Shown here: positions 4,932 to 8,147 of the stretch, one piece after another
How the letters are laid out: each line of letters begins with the position of its first letter
Numbering within the stretch: position 1 is the first letter of the stretch
NCBI GenBank assembly: GCA_030748575.1
Contig: JASMLR010000010.1
Span: 1-64,000 of the forward strand
Direction: 5' to 3'
From: Phycisphaerales bacterium
Lineage (GTDB): Bacteria > Planctomycetota > Phycisphaerae > Phycisphaerales > SM1A02
DNA: 64,000 nucleotides
Notes under the pieces: model-generated
What the model was told of the DNA's origin: nothing
The model's database searches: none
The model's input: only the letters and a program-made list of their open reading frames with translations
Translations under genes and position numbers: made by a program

Positions 4932-5018
4932 AACGCACGCTCTGCACTTGCGGGGCCGGGCGATTCGACCATACTGGTGTCCTGTGGGTTGGACCTGCCG
5001 GGGAAGAGGAGCCTCGTT

Positions 5019-7286
5019 GTGCGAACACTGTGCACCGTAAGTCTGTTGTCTGTCACATCGGCTGCTGTTGCGGTCCCGATGCCGCGTCCGTCCGATTTGG
5101 CGGGCCTGCAGGTGGTGGAGGTTGACGTTCCGGATGAGGCGGCCGTTGAACTGCTGCTCACGCAGGGTCTGGACGGTCTCGCGTGCCGGCCCGCCCCCGG
5201 GGTCGGGCCGTGGGTCGTTGGCGCGGATGACATCGCACTGCTGGATGCACTCGGGCTGGAACACGACGTAGTCATCGAGGATCTGGAGGCTCATCAGGAA
5301 GCCAGGAACGATGCGAGACGCGCCGCACGGGCGGCAGCGCGGGGGCTTGACACGTTCTACTCCGACTTTCGGACGTACGACGAGTATCAGACGCGGATGG
5401 ATCAGTTTCTGATCGACCACGCTGACATTGCTACAGGGGTCTCGCTGGGACAGAGCCACCAGGGTCGGGACATTCGGGGGGTCGTCATCAATGTCGATGG
5501 AAGCGACAAGCCCGCTGTGCTTTTCAACGGGTGCCAGCACGCACGCGAGTGGATTTCGCCGCCGACCACCTGGTACATCGCCGACACGCTGGCCGACAAC
5601 TATGGGACCGATCCCCAGATCACGGCGCTGCTCGACCGGGTGGAAGTCATCGTGATTCCGATCGTCAATCCTGATGGCTACGAGCACACCTACGAGGCAG
5701 GCGGCTACCGATTCTGGCGCAAGAACCGGCGGGACAACGGTGGTTCGTGCGCAGGTGTGGATCTCAACCGAAACTGGTCGAGCGACTGGAACGGCGGCGA
5801 GAGCACCAGTACGGACCCCTGCAGCGATGTCTATGTCGGCCCGGCGTCGATGAGTGAGCCGGAGGTGCAGGCACTGGCCAACTTCTGCCTTGATCACGGC
5901 GACATTCGGGCGCAGATCGACTTTCACTCCTATTCGCAGCTCATTCTGGAGCCTCGCGGCTACACCACGGCGCCTCCACCGGACTGGGACGAATTGCACG
6001 CCGTCGGCGGCGAGATGGCTGATGCCATTCAGTCAGTACACGGCTTGAACTACACGCACGACAATCCATGCAACATTCTGTATTGCGCCAGCGGGACGCT
6101 GATCGACTGGCCCTACGACACGTATGGTGCCGCGTCCTACTGCATCGAGCTTCGCCCATCCTCGGGGAGTGGTGATGGCTTCGACCCTCCGCCAAGCGAG
6201 ATCATTCCCTGCGCCGAGGAGAACTTTCAGGCTGCGTTGTCGCTGATCGATCATGTCGGTGTGCCGATGTCGATCTCCTTGCCGGGCGGAACGCCGCCGG
6301 TCGTCTCCACGACGGAGCCGACGAGCTTTGCTGTGACCATTTCAGCTGGCGCCCAGAACCCCGACGCGTCGACCGCTACGCTGCACCACCGTGGCAGTGG
6401 TGGGGCGTTTGCGACGACGGCGCTCGCGCACAACGACGGTGAGGCGTACACCGCGACATTGCCGACCTTCACGTGCGCCCAGTCGCCCGAGTACTACGTT
6501 TCGGTCGAAAGCGTCTCCGGATCCATGGTGGCCTATCCCATTGGGGCACCACTGGAACTGCTGACATCGGACGTTGCGTCATCGCTGGAGGTGGCGTTTG
6601 ATGACAACGGCGAGACTGACCCGGGGTGGACGGTGTCCGGCACCGCAACGGACGGGCATTGGGATCGCGGCGTACCCGCCGGAGGTGATCGAGGCGATCC
6701 ACCTGCGGACGCGGACGGCAGCGGCCAGTGCTGGTTGACCGACAATGTCGCGGGCAATAGCGACGTCGACGGGGGCGCGACGGTACTCACGTCCCCAGTC
6801 TGGATGGCGTCAGGTGACCTCTGGTCACTCTCCTACTCGCGCTGGTTCAGCAACGACTATGGCGCGTCGCCGAACGAGGATGTGATGCGCGTCGAGTGGT
6901 CTGAAGTGGGCAGCAGCACCTGGAATCTTCTTGAGCAGGTCGGCCCGACCGGTGCTTCCGGGGGGTGGGAGCACGTTGCGTTCGATCTTGATGCAGCCGG
7001 TCTGGTGGGGGTGGACGCTTTCCAGATCCGCTTTGTTGCCGAGGACGCGGGCAGCGGCTCGGTGGTCGAGGCGGCCATCGACGCGGTCCACCTGAGTCGG
7101 ATCGAGTGCATTGACGATGATCCGTGCCCGGGCGATGTAGACGGGAATGGGGAGGTGGGCGTGGATGATGTGCTCGCCGTCATCGGGGCGTTCGGAACCA
7201 ACGACCCCGCGGGAGACCTCGATGGTGACGGCATCGTCGACGTCAACGATATCCTGCTGGTCATCGCCGCCTTCGGCCCCTGCTAA
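5019..7286 (+). CDS. Secreted M14 zinc carboxypeptidase with C-terminal dockerin-like repeats
   Basis: NGCQHAREWISP (HxxE zinc motif), IVNPDGYEHTYE, LNRNWSSDW; tail DVDGNGEVGVDDVLAVIGAFG...DLDGDGIVDVNDILLVIAAFGPC. GTG start at 5019 has upstream GAGGAG; ORF opens at 4977. Confidence 0.9.
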   Translation: MRTLCTVSLLSVTSAAVAVPMPRPSDLAGLQVVEVDVPDEAAVELLLTQGLDGLACRPAPGVGPWVVGADDIALLDALGLEHDVVIEDLEAHQEARNDARRAARAAARGLDTFYSDFRTYDEYQTRMDQFLIDHADIATGVSLGQSHQGRDIRGVVINVDGSDKPAVLFNGCQHAREWISPPTTWYIADTLADNYGTDPQITALLDRVEVIVIPIVNPDGYEHTYEAGGYRFWRKNRRDNGGSCAGVDLNRNWSSDWNGGESTSTDPCSDVYVGPASMSEPEVQALANFCLDHGDIRAQIDFHSYSQLILEPRGYTTAPPPDWDELHAVGGEMADAIQSVHGLNYTHDNPCNILYCASGTLIDWPYDTYGAASYCIELRPSSGSGDGFDPPPSEIIPCAEENFQAALSLIDHVGVPMSISLPGGTPPVVSTTEPTSFAVTISAGAQNPDASTATLHHRGSGGAFATTALAHNDGEAYTATLPTFTCAQSPEYYVSVESVSGSMVAYPIGAPLELLTSDVASSLEVAFDDNGETDPGWTVSGTATDGHWDRGVPAGGDRGDPPADADGSGQCWLTDNVAGNSDVDGGATVLTSPVWMASGDLWSLSYSRWFSNDYGASPNEDVMRVEWSEVGSSTWNLLEQVGPTGASGGWEHVAFDLDAAGLVGVDAFQIRFVAEDAGSGSVVEAAIDAVHLSRIECIDDDPCPGDVDGNGEVGVDDVLAVIGAFGTNDPAGDLDGDGIVDVNDILLVIAAFGPC

Positions 7287-7289
7287 CCG

Positions 7290-7383
7290 ACCGCCGGTCA
7301 CTTTATGTGCTTGTCGCCCAACGACTTACAAAAACGCAAAAACATAAGTTGTGCTGTAGCAACGAGATAAAGTGACCGGCGGT
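7290..7383. mobile_element. MITE-like or structured 94-bp element with perfect 17-bp terminal inverted repeats
   Basis: ACCGCCGGTCACTTTAT (7290-7306) and ATAAAGTGACCGGCGGT (7367-7383); AT-rich interior including ACAAAAACGCAAAAACATAAG. Confidence 0.5.
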
Positions 7384-7391
7384 TCCGATTG

Positions 7392-8147
7392 ATGGCAGTG
7401 CGATTGTCGATCATCCTGATTTGCAAGGACGAGGCCTCCCGGATCCGGGAGACGCTGGAGGCCGTTCGCTTTGCCGACGAGGTGGTCGTGGTCGATTCCG
7501 GCAGCACCGACGGCACCCCTGAGATCGCCGCGGCCATTGCGGACCGTGTGGTGGTCACGGAGGACTGGCCCGGATTCGGCCCGCAGAAGAACAGAGCGCT
7601 CGATGCTGCGACCGGTGACTGGGTGCTTTCGATTGATGCGGACGAATTGGTGTCGCAGTCGCTGCGGGATGAGATTCTGTCCGCCATCGAGGCCGGCACG
7701 CATGACGCCTGGCGTGTGCCCAGACTTACCACGTTCCTCGGTCGTGAGATTCGCCACAGCGGGTGGTGGCCGGACTACGTGTTGCGGTTGTTTCGAAGAG
7801 GAGCGGCTCGGTTCTCGAACGATCTCGTCCACGAACGCGTCGTGTTCGAAGGCTCGGTTGGCACGCTCCGAAACCACCTTCAACACAGCGGTGAAGATGA
7901 CGCCGCATCCCTCCGCGAGAAGTCGATTCGATACGCAACGGCCGCGGCCGCGTCCCTGCACGCCGACGGTCGGTCGGGCGGCCCCTGCATCGCCGCGGCG
8001 AAGGCTGCTGCAGCGTTTCTGAAAAACTATGTTGTGCGGCGTGGGTTTCTGGACGGCCGAGCCGGCTGGGTGATCGCCATCACGGCTGCAGCCGGGAAGT
8101 GGAGGCGTTACATGCGCCTCGCGGAACTGAATCGAGGCGATGCGTGA
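7392..8147 (+). CDS. Glycosyltransferase family 2 (LPS core type)
   Basis: LSIILICKDEASRIRETLEAVRFADEVVVVDSGSTDGT; WVLSIDADELVS. Confidence 0.9.
   Translation: MAVRLSIILICKDEASRIRETLEAVRFADEVVVVDSGSTDGTPEIAAAIADRVVVTEDWPGFGPQKNRALDAATGDWVLSIDADELVSQSLRDEILSAIEAGTHDAWRVPRLTTFLGREIRHSGWWPDYVLRLFRRGAARFSNDLVHERVVFEGSVGTLRNHLQHSGEDDAASLREKSIRYATAAAASLHADGRSGGPCIAAAKAAAAFLKNYVVRRGFLDGRAGWVIAITAAAGKWRRYMRLAELNRGDA

Follow-up and report, generated by a model that had tools for sequence, protein, structure and literature searches.

The palindrome at positions 7285–7388 of the window, the 64,000-nt stretch of Phycisphaerales DNA analysed here, is very probably one copy of a REPIN-like, non-autonomous repeat family that is mobilised in trans by the one RAYT (a Y1/HUH transposase) encoded in the genome. 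This reading draws jointly on the repetition of the element, its extragenic placement beside the ends of genes, an orthologous locus that lacks it, its linkage and co-distribution with the RAYT, the co-variation of its hairpins, and the lack of target duplication.

Sequence, fold, and position of the palindrome

The first-pass annotation had described a 94-bp block with perfect 17-bp inverted termini, and both of its coordinates proved correct, with ACCGCCGGTCACTTTAT at 7290–7306 and its exact reverse complement at 7367–7383. The imperfect palindrome that it had seen continuing inward consists of 39-nt arms, 74% complementary, around a 16-nt centre, and the interior is indeed unlike the window in composition, with a G+C content of 45% inside versus 65% for the window. 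As the annotation had also stated, the block lies between a stop codon (TAA, 7284–7286) and the next ATG (7392–7394), 8 bp before the glycosyltransferase start. The palindrome at 7290–7383 is the sole perfect inverted repeat of at least 17 bp with a spacer of at most 100 nt in the window, no such repeat arose in any of 10 shuffles, and its occurrence is far above chance expectation. Folded as RNA the block has a z-score of -7.0, and folded as single-stranded DNA one of -6.2. Comparison of copies extended the 94-bp block to a full unit of about 104 bp, with the consensus AACTGACCG...CGGTCAGTT; the tips of the window copy are partly decayed, with AACC for AACT on the left and TCCGA on the right. 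The features of the locus are as follows.

7285–7388, unstranded: putative REPIN-like element, full unit (end conservation over 17 copies; alignment; covariance-model match 7285–7388)
7289–7299, + strand: left terminal hairpin GACCG-C-CGGTC, centred at 7294, 8 nt before TTTAT (hairpin co-variation between lineages)
7302–7328, + strand: left inner putative recognition block TTTAT..CTTGT....CAA..ACTTA (conserved among copies and lineages)
7345–7371, - strand: right inner putative recognition block, inverted (inverted-repeat alignment; end conservation among copies)
7374–7384, - strand: right terminal hairpin, repeating the left one in inverted orientation, outermost pair G-T (inverted repeat; co-variation)
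4977–7286, + strand: M14 zinc carboxypeptidase ending in a dockerin-like tail; the TAA stop at 7284–7286 touches the element tip (Pfam PF00246)
7392–8147, + strand: family-2 glycosyltransferase, with ATG 7392 supported by the G007 orthologue (Pfam PF00535)

The duplicated, dockerin-like C-terminal tail of the carboxypeptidase (window 7130–7286) recurs at many loci of the genus, and dockerin-like tails also adjoin other element copies (C22a).

A dispersed repeat family in the host genome

Searching the block against its own genome (G000; 2.38 Mb in 85 contigs) revealed 18–20 dispersed extragenic copies at 17 sites, supporting the earlier suggestion of a non-autonomous mobile element. The copies share a core of 86–87 bp with near-invariant ends, and the 34 ends of 17 aligned copies yielded the consensus AACTGACCG-CCGGTCACTTTAT-CTCCTTGTNNNACAANNACTTA. 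Conservation in these 17 copies drops off beyond AAC, which sets the unit length. Tandem or rearranged copies were found at C44:181437-181645, C33:242968-243200, and C2:67955-68075; at L030 (C2:66455-69467), two tandem beta-eliminating-lyase (tryptophanase-like) genes enclose a rearranged copy. We found no target-site duplication at the copies, and the extended complementarity of the element flanks was not significant. Insertion into pre-existing solo hairpins was rejected, because TGACCGSCGGTCA is almost confined to the elements. An exact 19-mer scan of GTDB contigs hit one Phycisphaerales MAG only, which matches G002, plus single matches in unrelated Clostridia and Alteromonas relatives that we take to be chance.

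Two species, those of G000 and G002, have in common a 317-bp stretch of 97% identity (C22:293198 onward, L002/L009, in G000; JASMKH010000001.1, L025, in G002), compared with about 70% for other DNA between members of the genus. The stretch begins at the left end of the element and crosses it into a dockerin-type gene, the left flanks are unrelated, and both loci lie near contig ends. Possible explanations are a recent transfer or rearrangement involving the element and, alternatively, cross-binning of a contig.

Neighbouring genes were framed with Pfam where possible, and 18 gene 3' ends were found to adjoin copies. Ten of these stop at the element's own TGA (consensus AAC-TGA), six have their stop in the 15 bp that precede the core, and two run on into the element. 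The Pfam domains of the RuvX, M20, and S9 neighbours extend to within 2 residues of the protein end, indicating that at these genes the native stop is where the element lies. Of the 12 ends whose frames enter the element, a category defined after the data were seen, 10 are in the TGA frame versus one third expected (p = 5e-4); over all 18 ends the p value is 0.04. The window copy is an exception, since its gene stops with TAA at 7284–7286 and not at the element's TGA. GTAG REPs reportedly show a similar habit, their termini often providing a TAG stop codon (PMC3733652).

Orthologous sites in the genus

Comparison of orthologous intergenic regions identified a site without the element in G007, a member of the same genus, where the gene order M14 peptidase, GT2, GT4 is preserved and the intergenic stretch measures 64 nt. 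It is not an exact empty site, because the intergenic sequences are too diverged for the junctions to be read; G007 has element copies at other places according to the covariance model. Downstream of the peptidase, G001 and G002 have GT4 but no GT2 and no element, and the 3' flanks of the peptidase in G003 and G005 also lack the element. The G007 locus likewise has no obvious Shine-Dalgarno sequence, so its absence in the window is not caused by the element.

These comparisons bear on whether the palindrome is a local regulatory hairpin of this operon, that is, a terminator, attenuator, or anti-RBS structure controlling the glycosyltransferase. Its intergenic position and a very stable predicted fold ending 8 bp before the ATG would suit such a role; however, the element recurs at 17 sites next to functionally unrelated genes and is missing from the same gene order in G007, which makes a dedicated regulatory function very unlikely. 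The first-pass annotation had itself reserved the local-hairpin reading for an element present once and conserved with its flanking genes, whereas the element is multi-copy and the flanking genes occur without it in G007. A side effect of the 18-bp hairpin on expression of the downstream glycosyltransferase is possible.

Linkage to a single RAYT gene

One Y1/HUH transposase gene (PF01797) was detected in G000, at C33:55714-56052 between two element copies, and the chance that 18 randomly placed copies would flank the PF01797 gene in this way is about 5e-6. The protein carries the motifs NHWH and YIHWNP, of the HUH and Y---NP type, and its putative catalytic tyrosine is Tyr121 in the 214-aa form. 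Its best structural relative by sequence profile is 4er8, a complex of E. coli TnpA_REP with a REP hairpin (E = 7e-11), which is also the best match by fold of the predicted RAYT model (moderate confidence, pLDDT 74.5). The NCBIfam model REP_Tyr_transpos scores it at 65.5 bits, below its cut-off of 80, a shortfall that counts against the REPIN-like reading. The RAYT has the same two neighbours in G000 and G095, an AcrB-type gene on one side and an S9 peptidase gene on the other, and this synteny in two genera is as expected under vertical inheritance.

The alternative that the element derives from a DDE insertion sequence, as a MITE or as a relic, would account for a short unit with inverted termini and dispersed copies. 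Against it, target-site duplications are absent, a search of G000 for an rve-type integrase (the DDE family scanned, covering an IS3/IS21/IS481-type parent) found none, and the hairpin ends are linked to a Y1 gene, which leaves this origin highly improbable. Of the earlier labels, MITE-like element and non-autonomous IS relic, the non-autonomous mobile part stands, while the IS relic is contradicted by the lack of target duplication and of an rve integrase and by a RAYT that is Y1/HUH and not DDE.

Distribution of RAYT and element across the family

A RAYT protein search of 151 genomes of the bacterial family identified the closest relatives in G095 (49% identical) and G137 (42%). The covariance model of the element matched 9 of 181 family genomes, comprising seven of the nine in the window's genus together with G095 and G137, so that the two genomes outside the genus that carry the element are those with the closest RAYT relatives. 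The G095 match is partly by construction, as four G095 copies were in the training alignment; the G137 match is independent of training and weak. G095 has about five copies, one of them just upstream of the RAYT. In G137 there are more than 30 matching places, with copies on both sides of the RAYT; at its loci L111–L118, the RAYT relative occurs with clustered TTGACTC-GAGTCAA palindromes, often in tandem arrays. G086 and G145, congeners of G137, gave no match to the G137 element.

Other members of the window's genus have weaker-scoring copies with no detected RAYT of this clade, several of these assemblies being incomplete, and the REPIN-like reading therefore needs either RAYT loss or incomplete assemblies. 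In G001, of the same genus, a RAYT 36% identical to that of G000 (L045/L056, G001:C25) has AAAGGGGTCAGG repeats on its flanks. Inverted repeats of other sequences likewise flank most of the remaining RAYT genes in the family (loci L050–L076), many of the AAAGGGGTCAGG or GGGACAGT type, so that one bacterial family holds many separate RAYT-repeat pairs.

Hairpin co-variation and independence of the arms

When the arms were anchored on TTTAT, the hairpin centre fell 8 nt upstream in all lineages. The stem is GACCG/CGGTC in G000, GACCCG/CGGGTC in G095, and TTGACTC/GAGTCAA in G137, with changes on both sides of the stem at pairs 1, 2, 4, 5, and 6; the G095 change can equally be one inserted base pair. 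In total, 80% of cells pair, versus a shuffle mean of 66% and maximum of 73%, the shuffle figure being no probability because the rows are related; sliding the partners lowers pairing to 48% or less. The co-variation argument rests on the between-lineage changes. We also evaluated one long co-evolving hairpin and rejected it, as left-right pairing over arm positions 13–27 is no better within a copy than between copies, and the centre gives a weak signal at most (p about 0.05). Co-variation likewise lent no support (p = 0.89) to an additional hairpin within each arm (CTTGT...ACAAG). Without mutual compensation, the left and right arms in G000 behave as two independent putative binding sites rather than as one functional long hairpin.

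A structured small RNA or riboswitch family, the former also raised in the first-pass annotation, would fit the strong fold predicted on either strand but is scarcely credible, since Rfam returned only sub-threshold chance matches, the arms vary independently, with compensation confined to a weak signal at the centre, and a common RNA function at 17 unrelated loci, beside functionally unrelated genes, is unlikely.

Proposed mechanism

Y1/HUH enzymes such as those of IS200/IS605 and TnpA_REP act on hairpin ends in single-stranded DNA, and their joining reaction leaves no target duplication. A RAYT would be expected to join ends in the same manner, in agreement with the lack of duplications at the copies. 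We infer transposition by the G000 RAYT, the cleavage position, and current activity. The REPIN-like unit would comprise two inverted recognition arms, each with a terminal hairpin and an inner TTTAT...CTTGT..ACAA..ACTTA block. A single-stranded copy of the element would fold, and the RAYT would bind its terminal hairpins, as proposed from IS200/IS605 and E. coli TnpA_REP. The enzyme would then cut beside the hairpins through a phosphotyrosine link and may join the excised piece to another single-stranded target, which would not be duplicated. Copies at gene 3' ends would survive best, aided by the TGA stop in each tip.

The lineages may, somewhat doubtfully, represent a distinct tag-less REPIN class, in which the RAYT has stayed at a single syntenic locus (AcrB-RAYT-S9 peptidase) across two genera and its cognate terminal hairpin is rewritten pair by pair at constant geometry. 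If so, hairpin specificity would be separable from tag recognition, with TTTAT replacing GTAG. G000, G095, and G137 offer three related RAYT-hairpin pairs with compensatory differences, a natural set for tests of RAYT recognition, and the genus members with weaker-scoring copies and no detected RAYT are usable for studying the fate of repeats after RAYT loss.

Comparison with known systems

The family resembles REPIN/REP-RAYT systems (PMC2817692, Nunvar 2010; PMC3116915, Bertels & Rainey 2011) in being short and extragenic, with two inverted hairpin-bearing repeats and a spacer, and in its single-copy RAYT flanked by the repeat (on both sides in G000 and G137, on one side in G095). The lineage-specific hairpin sequences with pairing kept, and the location at gene 3' ends, are further likenesses to REP-RAYT systems. 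Two further points speak against the REPIN-like reading. Unlike canonical GTAG REPs, the family has no GT[AG]G tag (0 of 32 hairpins), with TTTAT at a fixed distance instead, and 18–20 copies are few for a REPIN population, which numbers hundreds. The arms are also longer here.

In lacking the tag, the family is nearest to the published TIR repeats of TIRYT genes, or TIRtrons (PMC3733652, Di Nocera 2013), in which the repeats that flank a tyrosine transposase bear no relation to GTAG REPs, some being self-complementary and some moderately abundant. It differs from them in that whole palindromic units flank the gene and the GGGGWSAS motif is absent from the consensus, a motif present in only some TIRs (PMC3733652). 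The G001 RAYT with its AAAGGGGTCAGG repeats is of the classical TIR type. Most TIRYTs belong to TnpA_REP subclass 2.1, where no REP-like sequences were found (PMC6006769, Quentin et al.); the G000 RAYT resembles this subclass in length and partly in motifs, as compared by description with Table 1 of that paper. No paper on REP repeats in Phycisphaer* turned up in the literature collection searched. The present family extends RAYT-linked repeat populations to Phycisphaerales with one that has no GTAG tag. The Y1/HUH fold, the hairpin ends, and the lack of target duplication are shared with IS200/IS605 elements, unlike which the transposase here is single-copy and not spread as near-identical copies. 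The element is most likely a new family of a known kind, REPIN-like and RAYT-linked, and neither an RNA gene nor an element of a new kind.
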